NCBI RefSeq assembly: GCF_000219725.1
Contig: NC_015732.1
Location: forward strand, 2,356,001 to 2,420,000
Direction: 5' to 3'
DNA length: 64,000 bases
Origin: Gracilinema caldarium DSM 7334
GTDB taxonomy: Bacteria > Spirochaetota > Spirochaetia > Treponematales > Breznakiellaceae
The notes below the pieces were generated by a model, which saw nothing but the letters and a program-made list of their open reading frames with translations, searched no databases and was not told the DNA's origin. Below, one piece after another: positions 9,242 through 52,691 of this stretch; positions within the stretch are counted from its first letter, which is position 1, and every line of letters begins with the position of its first letter. The position numbers were made by a program, and so were the translations under genes.

Positions 9242-9270
9242 TTGACTTATTTTTATATATATTATAAATT
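9242..9270 (+). promoter_or_regulatory. probable promoter of the glutaredoxin gene
   Basis: TTGACT (9242-9247) followed by a TATA-rich block containing TATAAA (9263-9268) and TAAATT (9265-9270) at spacings of 15 and 17. Confidence 0.45.
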
Positions 9271-44764: not shown

Positions 44765-45757
44765 ATGATCGAAGTACATCACCTGGTAAAGCATTTTACA
44801 AAAATTGTTAAAGAAAAGGGTGTTGGGGGCAGTCTGAAAAGTCTTTTTGCCCCCCAAAAAGAACTGGTCCGCGCAGTGGATGATGTCAGTTTTCAAGTTG
44901 CTGAGGGGGAAATCCTTGGCTTCATCGGCCCCAATGGGGCAGGAAAATCGACGGTCATCAAAATGCTCACCGGTATTTTAAGTCCCACCGACGGCTGGTG
45001 CCGAATCAACGGATACATTCCCCAAAAGGAACGGAAACGCTATGTACGGGAAATTGGTGTTGTTTTCGGCCAGCGAACCCAGCTCTGGTGGGACCTGCCC
45101 CTAACCGAAACCTATACAGTACTTAAGGAAATATATGATATTCCTTCCGCAGAATATAAACAGCGGTTGGAGTTTCTAGACCATGTGCTTGAACTGGGCC
45201 CCATCTTGTCGAGCCCCGTCAGGACCCTTTCCTTAGGCCAGCGGATGCGGGCCGATATTGCCGCATCCATGCTACACAAACCCCGGGTTCTTTTTCTTGA
45301 TGAACCGACCATTGGCCTCGATATTGTGGTGAAGGACAGTATTCGCAGGGCTATTCGGGAAATCAATAGGACTGAAAAAACCACCATTATTCTTACCACC
45401 CATGACCTTAATGATATAGAACAGCTCTGTCAGCGGATTGTCCTTATCGATAAGGGGAAGCTCGTCTATGACGGCGACCTGGATAGAATCCGGACCAACT
45501 TTGGCAAAATTCGGGAAATTACCTTTATGCTCGAAGAAGCGGACCAGGTACAGCGTATTCCCTTTCCTCCCCACGAAGACTTGGATATTAAGCAGGAGGG
45601 GGCCAAGATCCGGCTTCGTTTTAATACGGAAGTTTGTTCATTGCCCCAGATGCTGGCCATCATATTGCAGGCGGTACAGGTTAAGGACATTTCAGTCCAG
45701 GATGTTGATATTGAAGAAATTCTCCGACGGGTATACCAACGGCAGGTAGCGTTATGA
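44765..45757 (+). CDS. ABC-2-type transporter ATP-binding protein
   Basis: 330 residues. Walker A GPNGAGKST, Q-loop region GVVFGQRTQLWWDLP, signature LSLGQRMRADIAAS, Walker B VLFLDEPTIGLD and the H-loop TTHDLNDIEQ are all present, with a C-terminal regulatory extension (about 240-330). The two following genes encode membrane subunits, overlapping by four and then seven bases. The trio resembles the uncharacterised three-part ABC exporters of the DrrA/COG4586 type. Confidence 0.92.
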   Translation: MIEVHHLVKHFTKIVKEKGVGGSLKSLFAPQKELVRAVDDVSFQVAEGEILGFIGPNGAGKSTVIKMLTGILSPTDGWCRINGYIPQKERKRYVREIGVVFGQRTQLWWDLPLTETYTVLKEIYDIPSAEYKQRLEFLDHVLELGPILSSPVRTLSLGQRMRADIAASMLHKPRVLFLDEPTIGLDIVVKDSIRRAIREINRTEKTTIILTTHDLNDIEQLCQRIVLIDKGKLVYDGDLDRIRTNFGKIREITFMLEEADQVQRIPFPPHEDLDIKQEGAKIRLRFNTEVCSLPQMLAIILQAVQVKDISVQDVDIEEILRRVYQRQVAL

Positions 45758-46566
45758 GACTGAAGGCCTATACACCCTTTACCAGTGCGGGGATCCAATC
45801 GGCTATTGCCTACAAATGGAATTTCCTTGGGTTCTTTTTCGGGCAAATATTTTTTACCTTTGTTATGTTTTTTCTCTGGCGCTCCGTATTCCGACACACC
45901 CCAGGGGGTATCATTGGTGGTTTTACCTTTCTGGACATGACTATTTACATTTTTGTTGCAAATATCACTGGATTTTTAGCGGACACCGATGCGTCCTATG
46001 TGGTCGGGGAAGAGATCGTCCAGGGCAGTATATCCATGAGGCTCATTAAGCCGGTAAGCTTTAATCTGAGCATTCTTTTTACCGAACTGGGGCAGAAACT
46101 GATTATCATAATCCTGGTCGCCATACCCGTTTTTTTTGGTCTGGAATGGTTCCGATTTTCCCAATCGGGTCAGATTGAGTTTTCCCTTGCAACCTTTGCA
46201 CTCTATTTGGTGAGTGTCACCTTGAGTTATCTGGTGATGTTCTTTTTCGATGTCTGTTTTGGCTATTTAGCCTTTATTTTTAAAAATCTCTGGGGAATAA
46301 ACATGCTTAAATTCGGCGTTTTAAATTTTCTTTCCGGCGGCATGGTACCCCTGGGACTGCTTCCTATGGCCATACAGCGGGCCTTAACGGTGCTCCCCTT
46401 TGCGTCCATGCGTTACACCCCGGTCATGATTTACACCGGAAAATATCAAGGATTGATGATCCTTTCGGCCCTGGGGACCCAGATTCTTTGGGTGCTCCTC
46501 CTCTATGGATTATCCAGCTTGATCTGGAAATTGACTGAACGGCACCTTACCATACAGGGTGGTTAA
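45754..46566 (+). CDS. ABC-2-type transporter permease (COG4587-like)
   Basis: 270 residues, six hydrophobic segments (for example VMFFLWRSVFRHTP, then AIPVFFGLEWF). It starts with an ATG overlapping the ATPase stop (ATGA). The family is the first membrane subunit of the uncharacterised exporter. Substrate unknown. Confidence 0.85.
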   Translation: MRLKAYTPFTSAGIQSAIAYKWNFLGFFFGQIFFTFVMFFLWRSVFRHTPGGIIGGFTFLDMTIYIFVANITGFLADTDASYVVGEEIVQGSISMRLIKPVSFNLSILFTELGQKLIIIILVAIPVFFGLEWFRFSQSGQIEFSLATFALYLVSVTLSYLVMFFFDVCFGYLAFIFKNLWGINMLKFGVLNFLSGGMVPLGLLPMAIQRALTVLPFASMRYTPVMIYTGKYQGLMILSALGTQILWVLLLYGLSSLIWKLTERHLTIQGG

Positions 46567-46567
46567 A

Positions 46568-47371
46568 ATGAAACAAAAAATTCGGCGTTTTTTTCGTCTC
46601 TACTGGATATTTACTACGCAGTTTTTTAAGCGGATCCTGGAATATCGGGCAGATTTTCTAACAGGAGCTTTGGCATTTTTTCTCGGCCAGCTTTTTAACC
46701 TGATATTCATCTATATTATCTTTAACAACATTCCCCAATTAGAAGGATGGACCGTGGACCAGATAGTTTTTATCTACGGTTTCTCACTGATACCCCGGGG
46801 TATTGACCATTTTTACGCGGACAACCTCTGGAAAGTCGCCTATTTTCTGATTCGGCGGGGTGAATTTGATAAATACCTGACCAGACCCATAGACAGCTTG
46901 CACCATGTTCTGATGGAAGGCTTCGAAGTAGACGCTCTGGGAGAACTCATTACCGGCATTATACTGGTTATTATTGCATCAAACCGACTGGCCCTGGTGT
47001 TCACCCCCCTTAAAGTCGCAGGCTTTATGGTGGCGGTGGTCTTTGGAACCCTCATATATACAGGCTTAAAGATTATTTTTGCTGCTGTTGCGCTGTGGAC
47101 TAAACAATCGGGAAGCCTCTTGCATATGGTCTACATGACAAGCGACTTTGCAAAATATCCGGTGACCATCTATAACATGCTGGTAAAGACTATCATCACC
47201 TATATGATACCCTTTGCGTTTACCGCTTTTTATCCTGCGGCCTGGCTGCTCACCGGAGAGGCACCCCTCTTTTCCCTTGGGGGTACGGTCCTGGCAGGAA
47301 CAGCCCTGATTATACTGGGGCGCCTGCTCTGGAACCGGGGACTCAGAGCCTATGAAAGTGCAGGCAGTTAA
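46568..47371 (+). CDS. ABC-2-type transporter permease (COG3694-like)
   Basis: 267 residues from the ATG at 46568, six hydrophobic segments; TQFFKRILEYRADF and the RRGEFDKYLTRPI segment before helix 3 are family hallmarks. A GTG three codons upstream is possible, but the ATG has GGGTGG at good distance. Third gene of the exporter transcript. Confidence 0.83.
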   Translation: MKQKIRRFFRLYWIFTTQFFKRILEYRADFLTGALAFFLGQLFNLIFIYIIFNNIPQLEGWTVDQIVFIYGFSLIPRGIDHFYADNLWKVAYFLIRRGEFDKYLTRPIDSLHHVLMEGFEVDALGELITGIILVIIASNRLALVFTPLKVAGFMVAVVFGTLIYTGLKIIFAAVALWTKQSGSLLHMVYMTSDFAKYPVTIYNMLVKTIITYMIPFAFTAFYPAAWLLTGEAPLFSLGGTVLAGTALIILGRLLWNRGLRAYESAGS

Positions 47372-47478: not shown

Positions 47479-48726
47479 ATGGGAAGATTTACCTCTGAAC
47501 AGACGGGTAAGAAGCTCGCTATCGAAATCATCATTATTTTCGGGATTGTAAGTCTCTTTGGAGACATCATGTACGAAGGAGCCCGGGCAGTAAACGGACC
47601 GTATCTTAAAACCTTGGGAGCCAGCGCAGCCCTGGTGGGGCTTATCGCAGGGATAGGAGAATTTTTAGGGTATATTGTCCGCCTGGCCTCTGGCTATTTT
47701 GCGGATAAGACCAAGGCCTACTGGTTTTTTGCTATTCTTGGTTATTCACTTCTCGCCTCTGTACCCCTGCTCGCACTAACCGGTGTTTGGCAGGTAGCGG
47801 CCCTCTTCATGGTACTGGAACGATTCGGTAAAGCCCTGCGGGCACCAGCAAAGGATACGATCCTTTCTACCGCCACCAAACACGTAGGTACGGGCTTTGG
47901 ATTTGGGCTTCATGAGGCTATGGATCAACTTGGTGCTCTGTTAGGGCCCCTTGTCTTCACCGCAGTCTTTGCATTTAGCAGAAAGGGAACTGATCTGGCT
48001 TCGTACCAAGCTGGATATGCATGGTTGTGGATTCCCTTCATCATCCTTATGCTGAGCCTACTCTATGCGTTTATCAGGGTTCCCAATCCAGAAGCCCTTG
48101 AAGCTATTGTTCCTAAAAAAGCAGAAGGTGACGTTTTAAGCAAAACCTTCTGGTTGTATACGGCCTTCAGTTTTATCACCACCCTGGGCTTTGTTGGGTG
48201 GCCCATTCTTTCCTATCACTATGCGGCCAAGGGAATACTTTCAGGAGCTGAAATTGCCCTCTTTTATGCCATCGCCATGGGTGTAGACGGACTTATTGCT
48301 GTTGCTATTGGCCTTCTGTATGATCATTTTAAGAAACAGAAAGACTCAGAGCATGGTGGGCTCATGACCCTCGCCATAATTCCTGTGGTTTCCCTCCTCA
48401 TACCCTTGGTAGGTTTTGCCCTACCCTCCAAGGGAGCCGCTGTACTTGCGGCAATCCTGTGGGGTGTAGTCATGGGAACCCACGAAACCATCATGAAAAG
48501 CGCCATCGCCGACATTACACCGATTAAAAAACGGGGCACCGGCTACGGAATCTTTAATACGGCCTATGGATTGGCGCTTTTTGTATCGAGCAGTCTGATG
48601 GGTCTCCTCTATGACCTAGGAATTATCTATGTTATCGTACTGGCCCTGGTAGCGGAGCTCCTGGCGATCCCGAGTTTCCTCATATTGCGCAAAGAGGCTC
48701 TAAGTAAAGCTCCTCATTTAAAATAG
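47479..48726 (+). CDS. major facilitator superfamily transporter
   Basis: 415 residues, about 12 membrane segments. The first-loop MFS signature is recognisable (GYFADKTKAYWFF), and motif ERFGKALRAPAKDTILS after helix 4 is typical of the drug/metal efflux-type clade. AAGGAG precedes the ATG. Substrate unknown. The gene has its own promoter and operator-like repeats. Confidence 0.87.
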   Translation: MGRFTSEQTGKKLAIEIIIIFGIVSLFGDIMYEGARAVNGPYLKTLGASAALVGLIAGIGEFLGYIVRLASGYFADKTKAYWFFAILGYSLLASVPLLALTGVWQVAALFMVLERFGKALRAPAKDTILSTATKHVGTGFGFGLHEAMDQLGALLGPLVFTAVFAFSRKGTDLASYQAGYAWLWIPFIILMLSLLYAFIRVPNPEALEAIVPKKAEGDVLSKTFWLYTAFSFITTLGFVGWPILSYHYAAKGILSGAEIALFYAIAMGVDGLIAVAIGLLYDHFKKQKDSEHGGLMTLAIIPVVSLLIPLVGFALPSKGAAVLAAILWGVVMGTHETIMKSAIADITPIKKRGTGYGIFNTAYGLALFVSSSLMGLLYDLGIIYVIVLALVAELLAIPSFLILRKEALSKAPHLK

Positions 48727-48786: not shown

Positions 48787-50061
48787 TTATAATTCGCTGT
48801 GTATTTTTAATAGCTGATCAGTAGCATATACACCTGCAAAACCAGGATTGGCATAGGCTTCTTCTCGAGCTTTTGCAAGAGCCAAATTTCGATCTTTATT
48901 TTCTTCTAAAGAATTTAAATAAGACCCTATTTTGAAAAATTCTTCTTCCTTTAAAGGGTGAGCTATGGCCCGAAGGGTGCGGAAGGTCCATGGCTCCAAA
49001 TCTACATCGGCAGCGTCATAGGGACGTAAATCGAAATTAAAATCCGCATAAACAACTGGTCTACCAAAAAGAAAAAGATAGTCAAAAATAACACCAGAAA
49101 AATCTGAAATAAGAATATCAGCACGGGAAAGAACGTATATATTTTCCCTGTCTTCATTCCATTCAACTGATGAATAATGGGCCAACTCCTTTTTCAGCTT
49201 ATTAATAGTCGGTAGTTCAGATATAAAGCTTTGCGGATGGGGTCGTATAATTACGTGGTATCCAGATTCAGCTAAAGGACGTAATAACTTCATACCAAAA
49301 CGTCTTAGCATACCATTTTCACCCCAAGAGGGTGCTACTAGAACTGTTTTAGTAGTCGTCTCTAGAGGCGGACTTGCAACAATAGATTTCGCAATTAATG
49401 CCAATTCATCTAAATAGGTACAGCCCACAACTTCAAGACGTTTAGGCTTTGTACCCCTTAAGCGTTCAAGGGTTCTTAAGTCTTTAATTTGATATGGACC
49501 TGTAAGAAACACTGAATCATAATAATCTAAACCAAAAAGGCGATAAAGGGTAGCATCTGTCACGGCATGAAGGATATGTATATAGTGCTTAACACCAGGG
49601 GAACGTTTAAATTGTAATACATCCAAGCCAGGAGTTGTGGTTATGCATATATCGGCCTCAAGAAAATTAAGGGTATGATAGGCTTTATTCCCTTCACCAA
49701 TAAATCGTACTTGTATATAGTTAGATTGGAATTGTAATCCAGGATCAGCCAGATCGGAAGTAAAGTAGGAACATGTAATACCACGGCGATGGAACTCTTC
49801 TACAATTGGTTTAAATACATTCCAATAACGCCCACCTTCAGAATAAAAAACAAAGGTTGGTTTTTCTCCAATAATTGCTTTATTTGTACGAATAGAAAGA
49901 TTTTTTAATCGTAATAAGCAATTTTTTAAAAAGAAATACAGTGTAACCGCTAAACCAGTTAGAAAAGAAAAAAGCATACTCCCAGTACCTGGATCTATAT
50001 ATCCAAAGACCGGTGAAATGACCAATAAAAACAACACACATAGATAAGTCAGACGTATCAT
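48787..50061 (-). CDS. CDP-glycerol glycerophosphotransferase-family protein
   Basis: About 424 residues from the ATG at 50059-50061. A hydrophobic N-terminal segment (YLCVLFLLVISPVF) and a second one (LFSFLTGLAVTLYFF) anchor it to the inner membrane. The enzyme domain has the family marks: VLVAPSWGENGMLRRFG, the HVIIRPHPQ motif, and the DILISDFSGVIFDYLFLFG motif that binds the nucleotide part of CDP-glycerol in TagB/TagF-like enzymes. Teichoic-acid polymerases use this domain; in spirochaetes the substrate may be another polyol or glycan. Overlaps the upstream YidC-sulfatase gene, so it is co-transcribed. Confidence 0.85.
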   Translation of the reverse strand: MIRLTYLCVLFLLVISPVFGYIDPGTGSMLFSFLTGLAVTLYFFLKNCLLRLKNLSIRTNKAIIGEKPTFVFYSEGGRYWNVFKPIVEEFHRRGITCSYFTSDLADPGLQFQSNYIQVRFIGEGNKAYHTLNFLEADICITTTPGLDVLQFKRSPGVKHYIHILHAVTDATLYRLFGLDYYDSVFLTGPYQIKDLRTLERLRGTKPKRLEVVGCTYLDELALIAKSIVASPPLETTTKTVLVAPSWGENGMLRRFGMKLLRPLAESGYHVIIRPHPQSFISELPTINKLKKELAHYSSVEWNEDRENIYVLSRADILISDFSGVIFDYLFLFGRPVVYADFNFDLRPYDAADVDLEPWTFRTLRAIAHPLKEEEFFKIGSYLNSLEENKDRNLALAKAREEAYANPGFAGVYATDQLLKIHSEL

Positions 50062-52691
50062 TTCTCTATATTCCCCCAAGAACGAGCACTATAGATATCA
50101 CCGCCAAGGTAAGCACGGGATGATGTTAAGGTAAAACCAATTGGTCCATGGCGGTTCTGACTACCTGGGGCTTCATATATTCGTAAAGGTTCATGAGTAT
50201 AACGGTGTAGATTATTACCTGTGAAAGGATTTTTCGAATCAATTGGGTCTATTTTTGATAATATAAAAGGAACTTCTGCAATAGTCATAAACTCATCACT
50301 CATTCGTAATGTTCCCCGAGCACCTCGCTCCTTCACTAAAAATAGGGGGTTGTATCGCTCTAGAGAAGGAATTTCAAATAACGTATTATGAAATCGACCT
50401 CCGTGATCTGCCACAATAATTATCAAAGAGTTATCATAGACGCCCTCTGCTTTAAGGTACCGAATCCAGTTTCCTAGAGCTCGTATTGAAGCAAGAAATG
50501 CATAGGCGTATGCAGCATCTCCCTGAGAACCAAAACGCTCGAGATCAGCTTTTCCATAAAGAACAGGATCCCGTGAAGGCATATAATCTGTGGTAAATGC
50601 GCCATATTCATGTGTAGATTCATTCATGAAAATATTTAAAGAAGGAGGACCATTATCTATGGCACATAGATCTTTTAGATAATATAAATTGGGAAAAACT
50701 GCCAAAGATCTTTCAAAGCTATTAGATCTTCCATCTCTCCACCAGCCACCATTATAGTAGATCATGTAACGTAAAGCCGGCGGAACAACACGGAACAATG
50801 AAAAACGGAATAATATATCATAATCAAAAGTCTCAGTGATCGGTTCAGGTGGATATGCATGTTCCTCTAAAAACCGTTTTGCATAAAGCCCCTTTATATT
50901 ACGAGCAGTAACATTAGGGATCCCATTAAAAATCGATATATCTGGTACCCATTTAAGACCAGCGAGGCTCGGATCGGTTATAGCAACACGCCACCCCAAA
51001 TCACTGTACAACCGCGGTAATAAAGTTAATGATTCATTAATCTTGTCTACCAGAGGTTTCTCTGTTCGTTTATTTATATTCCAAGGGGTATAATCGTATC
51101 CACCAAAAATCGAAGGCACACCAAGGATCGTACAATCTCCAAAGGAAATAGTCTTAGGATACCAAACAAAGCCCTCAAATTCAGAGATGGTATCTGGTAA
51201 TAATGCAAGTGCATGATTAAAAGCAACTCCTATCGCCCGATCGAGGAAAATGATAAAGGTATTATTTTTATCACGAGCAATATGGAATATAGTCTCCTGA
51301 TTCGTTTTTATCGATGATGTTGTTTGGGAAACCTCATGTAAATCTTGATTCATCGCAAATAATTCAACTGAAGTACTGAGCAAAACTGCTATTGAGGCTG
51401 CACCCAAAAAAATCTTAAAGAAACGGAGTTTTTTATAATTTAACAGAAAAATGCATAAGACGATTGTGATAACAACAGCAAGAATGGTAACCCAAAGTGG
51501 AAAGTTTGTTTTAAGCAAATGAGGATTATCAAATACAAAACCCCTTGTCATAGTTCCATAATTACCACTCAATATAAAGAACGAAATTAAAGCTAAAATG
51601 GCAGAAAAAGCGGAAAGGACCGAAAGAACTCGTTTATGTCTTGAATCTGAAAAAGACCATATAAAACCAGGTAAAAGGATACATGCAGAAAAGCCTTGTA
51701 AAGCAGTCCTCAGTATAAACGACCAGGGGTTCTCAAACTCAGTAGGTGAGGAAGCTATTGTTTGAGCAGGAATAAAAAGACCTATTAAAACAAAAAGGAT
51801 AAGCCAAGATCCATAGTAAAGGCCCCGATCTAGTGGTACATTTTGAATTGATCGATCGATGAAATCCATAATTCGAGACCATAAAAGAGGTATAAACGGT
51901 ACTGCAAGAAAAAATGCTACAAGAGTATAACGATAGTAAGGCTTGAGTGAAGCTAATCCTACAAGTAAGCCTATAGCCACAATAAGTGAGAATAACGTGA
52001 TCGTCCAGTATAAAGCCAAAATAGGTTTTTTAAGATACCTATTTGCTAAATTCTTACCCAGCGAGAAAAGGTTATTTAACGTCCAATACAATACCAGTCC
52101 TGATGGGGAATTATAGAGCAGAACTAGAAATATTCCTGCCATAACAATAAGTTGCATTCGTTCCCGAAGTGGCGCCCCTCGAGTATAGACCAGTGATGAC
52201 AATATATTAATTATTGTCATAATAATTGGCAACAAATTAAAACCCAATAGACCATCAGGTTCACCTAAATTAGCTAAAAATAAAAACGAATATCCTTGCA
52301 AAGACTTTGTATGACTAAGAAATTCATAGGCACCGATAAAGAAAGGTATCTGTAATAAAAGTCCTGTACTAGCCTTAAGTGCATTAAAAGGTGAATAACC
52401 CATCTGACGATAATAAGTGTTCACCATCATCTGACGTTCATCACCTTTGAACACGGCTTTGATATCCGCAAGTTTCTTTTTCATCCGATCACGTATCTGA
52501 CGATCTTCCTGTTGCCACCGATCTGCCACTTTATATATGGGAAGTAATATCGTATTGATTATCAAACTAATAAATACTATTGAGATACCTGGTTTATAAT
52601 CAAAAACAACCTGAAAAACAACAAAAAGAATTTCCACAATAGCTCGTATAGGCCAAATCACCAGTGTATGTAACATCATCCAAATACTCAT
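50058..52691 (-). CDS. fusion of a YidC-type insertase domain with a polytopic linker and a sulfatase/LtaS-like catalytic domain
   Basis: 877 residues. Residues 1-225 are recognisably YidC/Oxa1: helix after KPGISIVFISLIINTILL, the cytoplasmic hairpin with QIRDRMKKKL, MGYSPFNALKASTGLL, and LLYNSPSGLVLYWTLNNLFS. Residues 225-450 add more membrane segments. The C-terminal part (about 470-860) has an alkaline-phosphatase-superfamily shape: FIIFLDRAIG (metal Asp), the possible nucleophile Thr in GDCTILGVPS, and IIIVADHGGRFHN (metal Asp-His). This resembles phosphoglycerol/phosphoethanolamine transferases. AAGGAC precedes the ATG. The following gene is CDP-glycerol-transferase-like. I do not know a described protein of this build. 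Confidence 0.8.
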   Translation of the reverse strand: MSIWMMLHTLVIWPIRAIVEILFVVFQVVFDYKPGISIVFISLIINTILLPIYKVADRWQQEDRQIRDRMKKKLADIKAVFKGDERQMMVNTYYRQMGYSPFNALKASTGLLLQIPFFIGAYEFLSHTKSLQGYSFLFLANLGEPDGLLGFNLLPIIMTIINILSSLVYTRGAPLRERMQLIVMAGIFLVLLYNSPSGLVLYWTLNNLFSLGKNLANRYLKKPILALYWTITLFSLIVAIGLLVGLASLKPYYRYTLVAFFLAVPFIPLLWSRIMDFIDRSIQNVPLDRGLYYGSWLILFVLIGLFIPAQTIASSPTEFENPWSFILRTALQGFSACILLPGFIWSFSDSRHKRVLSVLSAFSAILALISFFILSGNYGTMTRGFVFDNPHLLKTNFPLWVTILAVVITIVLCIFLLNYKKLRFFKIFLGAASIAVLLSTSVELFAMNQDLHEVSQTTSSIKTNQETIFHIARDKNNTFIIFLDRAIGVAFNHALALLPDTISEFEGFVWYPKTISFGDCTILGVPSIFGGYDYTPWNINKRTEKPLVDKINESLTLLPRLYSDLGWRVAITDPSLAGLKWVPDISIFNGIPNVTARNIKGLYAKRFLEEHAYPPEPITETFDYDILFRFSLFRVVPPALRYMIYYNGGWWRDGRSNSFERSLAVFPNLYYLKDLCAIDNGPPSLNIFMNESTHEYGAFTTDYMPSRDPVLYGKADLERFGSQGDAAYAYAFLASIRALGNWIRYLKAEGVYDNSLIIIVADHGGRFHNTLFEIPSLERYNPLFLVKERGARGTLRMSDEFMTIAEVPFILSKIDPIDSKNPFTGNNLHRYTHEPLRIYEAPGSQNRHGPIGFTLTSSRAYLGGDIYSARSWGNIEK

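Follow-up and report, generated by a model that had tools for sequence, protein, structure and literature searches.

What does a YidC-type insertase domain do when it is built into the same polypeptide as an enzyme of the LtaS and MCR-1 kind? The question is raised by a minus-strand gene in a 64,000-nucleotide stretch of Gracilinema caldarium DSM 7334 (the window, C1:2356001-2420000 of a genome made up of one contig of 3,239,340 bases). Its product joins a YidC-like domain, a membrane block and an alkaline-phosphatase-superfamily catalytic domain, and the next gene encodes a TagB/TagF-like partner (Table 1). The pair probably serves to decorate sugars of the cell surface, not to insert proteins, and the evidence for this is set out below.

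A genuine fusion with an altered YidC groove

The fusion protein was confirmed to be genuine. Its open reading frame (ORF) is intact, a single frame of 877 codons, and stop-free full-length homologues of about 890-915 residues were present in about 20 of 59 relatives. An alignment-based scan of GTDB contigs recovered 561 related stretches, among them named bins of Treponema, Brucepastera and Lachnospiraceae/Oscillospiraceae; a scan of these contigs with a single-protein pattern gave no match. Because full-length relatives are found across spirochaetes and Clostridia, the fusion is no assembly artefact, and the many independent full-length homologues ruled out an assembly error or frameshift as its source. 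The YidC-like domain was detected in 50 of 247 genomes that sample the phylum evenly, with up to six copies per genome (the five weakest matches were left out as canonical-like), and in six or seven of 120 genomes from one Lachnospiraceae family. YidC-like and transferase parts occur as a conserved pairing in spirochaetes and in some clostridia, where a gene for a teichoic-acid-type transferase usually lies next to them. An earlier, sequence-only reading of this DNA had suggested looking for the same fusion in other spirochaetes, where it was indeed found, and had called the build unfamiliar from the literature. On the latter point, the build is widespread and thus less unusual than assumed, yet no description of such a fusion was found in the open-access literature, which omits most subscription journals.

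To obtain a structural view, an AlphaFold2 model was built on 77 aligned homologues. The model was confident (pLDDT 90.6, pTM 0.84) and comprised YidC-like helices up to residue 219, seven helices at 223-459 and a mixed domain at 469-877. Top Foldseek matches included MCR-1 (full length), PbgA/YejM and LtaS (E 1e-6 to 1e-8), and VIA-align matched residues 474-877 to LtaP, LtaS, PbgA, EptC, phosphonate monoester hydrolases and sulfatases with Z scores of about 20-22, the PbgA alignment spanning 286-877, helices included. The Pfam sulfatase model reached 16.3 bits on the C-terminal part, under its cut-off of 25. D484, T521, H694, D762, H763 and K787 were invariant in 77/77 sequences; going by the motif order of LtaS, we take D484, D762, H763 and H694 to be the metal site and T521 to be the nucleophile. 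The C-terminal part therefore does fold, in prediction, as a member of the alkaline-phosphatase superfamily with metal-site residues, and the Pfam matches and the model together bear out the earlier description of a YidC part, a further membrane stretch and this catalytic domain in one protein. In the 77 sequences the loop charges fit the positive-inside rule if the catalytic domain lies outside, and since the number of helices is odd, the catalytic domain is extracytoplasmic in the model. Helices followed by an extracytoplasmic domain with a conserved Thr nucleophile and metal-site residues are likewise found in MCR-1/EptA, PbgA and LtaS-type enzymes. The helix block of MCR/PbgA/LtaS-type enzymes has five helices, whereas that of the fusion has seven and is preceded by a whole YidC-like domain.

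The YidC-like part itself is well preserved in outline. Pfam 60KD_IMP matched residues 35-215 (E 1.9e-23, above cut-off), TIGR03592, the YidC subfamily model, gave 85.2 bits against a cut-off of 84.3, and the YidC core with its C1 hairpin and core helices was kept in the model, as in YidC/Oxa1 insertases. Unlike in those insertases, however, the Arg or Lys of the groove is replaced. Position 46, which aligned with the groove Arg of E. coli YidC, was Ser, Asn, Thr or Gln in 77/77 fused sequences, and Lys or Arg occurred within residues 36-52 in 0/77, whereas the canonical YidCs of spirochaetes had Lys or Arg at the groove position in 8/8. In a phylogenetic tree the fused and stand-alone YidC-like forms grouped in a single clade with support of 100/100, set apart from the insertases by a branch of 1.95 changes per site, and the forms in this clade share either a polypeptide or a transcription unit with surface-glycan transferases. 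The check for a canonical yidC elsewhere in the genome was positive (C1:6264-6860); this gene and the invariant catalytic residues ruled out an ordinary insertase with a spurious tail.

Whether the YidC part had been recruited as a membrane module or still inserts proteins had been left open, and the loss of groove charge and the long-branched clade tip the balance to recruitment. We therefore favour, with moderate confidence and from sequence comparison, a derived, non-canonical Oxa1-fold module that would no longer act as a general insertase. It could instead remain an insertase that serves solely to insert or fold the enzyme it is joined to, or the partner, and the fusion would then make sure that they assemble together. 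The retained core and C1 hairpin and the scores above both cut-offs are consistent with this, and purified E. coli YidC scrambles lipids in liposomes, with simulations placing the lipid path in the same groove as insertion (PMC10491306), so that a lipid role and an insertase role are compatible. Nevertheless, the absence of the positive residue from all 77 fused and both stand-alone forms, the separate clade and the presence of a canonical yidC make a dedicated insertase unlikely, and the two split loci described below argue in the same direction.

A different alternative holds that the YidC part is a mere membrane anchor and the catalytic part a hydrolase, either a phosphodiesterase or a sulfatase, that remodels surface polymers. 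The resemblance of the catalytic domain to sulfatases and phosphonate monoester hydrolases (Z 20-22) agrees with this. However, mean pairwise identity among the 77 sequences was 55.6% in the YidC part, 25.9% in the membrane block and 37.4% in the catalytic domain, so that the supposed anchor would be better conserved than the rest of the fusion, which speaks against a passive role. The nucleophile is Thr in LtaS/MCR-type transferases and Cys or Ser in sulfatases; the aligned residue, which we take to have this role, is Thr in 77/77. The genes also lie in biosynthetic operons. An anchored hydrolase thus appears improbable, and more so than a dedicated insertase.

Two departures from the intact single-frame arrangement were observed. 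In Treponema putidum (L175:7709-17423), several YidC-like and membrane/catalytic ORFs stand as separate neighbouring frames, which are either natural splits or a decayed tandem array. A Brucepastera fusion (L070:8001-10663) is divided into two frames of 423 amino acids each; tblastn traced a near-complete homologue (52-53% identity) across the frame change near 9254-9266, a real frameshift or a sequencing error. In another family of the phylum (f22), genomes of 2.5-3.4 Mb carry one to six fusions each (L176, L177 and L178), many of them 900-1010 amino acids long; those whose groove position was checked have Asn there.

The partner gene and its neighbourhood

The identification of the next gene as a TagB/TagF-type transferase held up. 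Pfam Glyphos_transf (PF04464) matched its product with E 1.9e-10, and TagF (3l7i) was the best PDB match to its GT-B fold, so that domain and fold are shared with TagB/TagF/TarL. The partner differs from these enzymes in being a short form with an N-terminal membrane helix that opens with a conserved YIDPGTGS motif, and in belonging to a genome without TagD above cut-off. It is the only PF04464 protein of its genome, in which PF00884 found no match. Among related loci the partner was found in 57 of 81. It was the next gene downstream for 38 of 105 fusions, in most cases with an overlap or a gap of a few bases. Other neighbours included glycosyltransferases, a sugar-lipid initiating transferase, GDP-heptose genes, a nucleotidyltransferase-CobD-like fusion and the gene set for CMP-2-aminoethylphosphonate (CMP-AEP). 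The glycosyltransferase, GDP-heptose and CMP-AEP genes support the envelope or surface-glycan context that had been proposed from the sequence.

In about nine loci (for example L097:11922-13757 and L184:8745-10598), a protein of 611-617 amino acids that combines a nucleotidyltransferase with a CobD/HisC-like pyridoxal-phosphate enzyme is encoded between or beside fusion and partner. This protein may make another CDP-activated amino-alcohol.

Two loci encode the parts separately within one cluster. In L173, the genes ppm, ppd and nucleotidyltransferase-AEP transaminase come first, followed by a stand-alone YidC-like gene, the partner gene and, last, a gene of its own for a membrane enzyme of the alkaline-phosphatase superfamily; the same components occur in L174, where the AEP genes are divergent. 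The stand-alone YidC-like protein of L173 has Asn at position 46. The separate enzyme of L173 carries Pfam Sulfatase, and no homology of the L173/L174 enzyme to the fused catalytic part was detected by profile. Because these clusters hold the parts as separate genes, function appears to follow the gene set rather than the fusion. With its gene apart and a different enzyme of the superfamily beside it, the YidC-like protein follows the pathway and not one polypeptide, which speaks against an insertase devoted to its own fused enzyme.

Phosphonate or glycerophosphate as the possible transferred group

We found a complete CMP-AEP operon in the G. caldarium genome (C1:1505064-1509305; L138:9065-13306), just after dTDP-rhamnose-type genes. 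It encodes a phosphoenolpyruvate (PEP) mutase with a nucleotidyltransferase domain, a phosphonopyruvate decarboxylase and a nucleotidyltransferase-AEP transaminase, and three equivalog models scored above cut-off. Across the 247 genomes the YidC-like domain was present in 17 of 22 with a short-type PEP mutase and in 33 of the other 225 (Fisher p 1.6e-9). Short and long PEP mutase types were told apart only once the data had been seen; for all 31 PEP mutase genomes the figures were 17/31 against 33/216 (p 4e-6). The domain and the short-type PEP mutase were at most 12 kb apart in 8 of the 17, and CMP-AEP genes adjoin the pair in about 9 of 81 related loci, as they do in L173 and L174.

Several points weigh against the explanation favoured below. 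The co-occurrence counts ignore shared ancestry, and the AEP operon of G. caldarium lies 0.9 Mb from the fusion. PEP mutase was absent from 14 of 23 fusion-bearing genomes in one sample and from 33 of the 50 domain bearers in the 247-genome sample. Of 18 other genomes with the fusion, 2 had a TagD above cut-off, and in these glycerophosphate may be the transferred group. Finally, a lipid-linked substrate and its flipping are steps that we infer, with scrambling by E. coli YidC (PMC10491306) as the precedent. AEP as a universal group was ruled out, as many near-complete fusion-bearing genomes had no PEP mutase. Because 33 of 50 bearers are without this enzyme, other head groups are to be expected elsewhere.

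The polymer suggested by the sequence-only reading, decorated with a polyol or glycerophosphate, would have the partner use CDP-glycerol and the fusion act as a genuine LtaS-like polymerase with phosphatidylglycerol as its source. The PF04464 assignment and TagF-like fold of the partner and the likeness of the catalytic domain to LtaS and LtaP (Z 20-21) are in keeping with this, as are the two TagD-bearing genomes and the requirement of LtaS-type enzymes for phosphatidylglycerol rather than CDP-glycerol. However, TagD (TIGR01518, glycerol-3-phosphate cytidylyltransferase) was over its curated cut-off in none of 59 genomes, that of G. caldarium and 58 relatives, and the sole TagD-like stretch of the G. 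caldarium genome was the N-terminal part of the PEP mutase. Moreover, the strong linkage is to phosphonate and nucleotidyltransferase/decarboxylase genes, and the LtaS match was no better than the sulfatase or MCR-type match. A search of the open-access literature for glycerophosphate polymers in Treponema gave no useful paper. These data weaken the glycerophosphate reading, which is only in part supported and which we consider unlikely, and we prefer an AEP-type or mixed head group; in AEP-making species the partner probably uses a donor other than CDP-glycerol.

The phosphonyl tailoring (Pnt) pathway offers a comparison (PMC6697681). As in that pathway, genes for PEP mutase, phosphonopyruvate decarboxylase and a nucleotidyltransferase-AEP transaminase are present in G. 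caldarium and in many relatives. The later steps of bacterial phosphonate tailoring have been called enigmatic, and the pathway paper names LicD-like transferases and neither YidC nor glycerophosphotransferases (PMC6697681), whereas here the TagB/F-like enzyme and the YidC fusion are candidates for the later steps.

A candidate mechanism and the features of the locus

Our best explanation, held with moderate confidence, is a two-gene unit that attaches phosphate- or phosphonate-linked groups to a glycan or glycolipid of the cell surface. On the cytoplasmic face, the partner would load a lipid-linked acceptor from a CDP- or CMP-activated donor, probably CMP-AEP where it is made and elsewhere another CDP-activated amino-alcohol or alditol. 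The YidC-like part would position the lipid-linked substrate or flip it across the membrane. On the outer face, the catalytic domain would take the phosphoryl or phosphonyl head group onto Thr521 and then hand it on to the glycan, in the manner of MCR/EptA and LtaS. The data show the fusion, its fold in the model, the conserved active site, the topology from charge bias, the missing groove charge and the co-occurrence and linkage with the phosphonate pathway. The chemistry of transfer, the donor, the acceptor, the direction of the substrate and the role of the YidC-like part are what we infer in this scheme.

As a more tentative extension, a YidC/Oxa1 subfamily could have left protein insertion to become a dedicated flippase for lipid-linked intermediates of surface glycans or head groups, fused to the outer transferase that uses them; with the TagB/F-like partner it might provide the final steps that are still missing from the tailoring of spirochaete and clostridial surfaces with aminoethylphosphonate and similar groups. 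A YidC subfamily without groove charge, beside or fused to surface-glycan transferases, is a natural test of whether lipid movement can be the primary function of an Oxa1 fold, and the two-gene unit is a concrete spirochaete candidate for the later steps of phosphonate tailoring. Annotation of such fusions simply as YidC risks hiding the enzyme and inflating insertase counts.

Table 1. Features of the fusion locus, in window positions
Feature	Position	Strand	Basis
Fusion protein, 877 aa: YidC-like domain, seven-helix membrane block and alkaline-phosphatase-superfamily catalytic domain	50058..52691	-	ORF, Pfam, model, relatives
YidC/Oxa1-like domain, residues 1-222; groove position 46 is Asn, not Arg/Lys	52026..52691	-	Pfam 60KD_IMP, E. 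coli YidC alignment
Seven-helix membrane block, residues 223-459; predicted cytoplasmic loops net-positive	51315..52025	-	Model, hydrophobicity and charge bias (77 sequences)
Alkaline-phosphatase-superfamily catalytic domain, residues 469-877	50061..51287	-	VIA-align Z 20-22, invariant residues 77/77
Partner, TagB/TagF-like CDP-alcohol phosphotransferase, 424 aa from ATG at 50061	48787..50061	-	PF04464, TagF 3l7i, start/stop overlap

The ATG at 50061 overlaps the TGA stop of the fusion as ATGA and has GGGGGA just upstream, which makes it the most likely start of the partner on sequence grounds. A longer ORF of 430 amino acids (48787-50079, minus strand) would begin with TTG at 50079. Promoter and terminator scans at the locus gave scores no better than shuffles. 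On the opposite strand, an operon for an ABC-2-type transporter (an ATPase and two permeases; window 44765-47371) lies upstream of a gene of the major facilitator superfamily (47479-48726).

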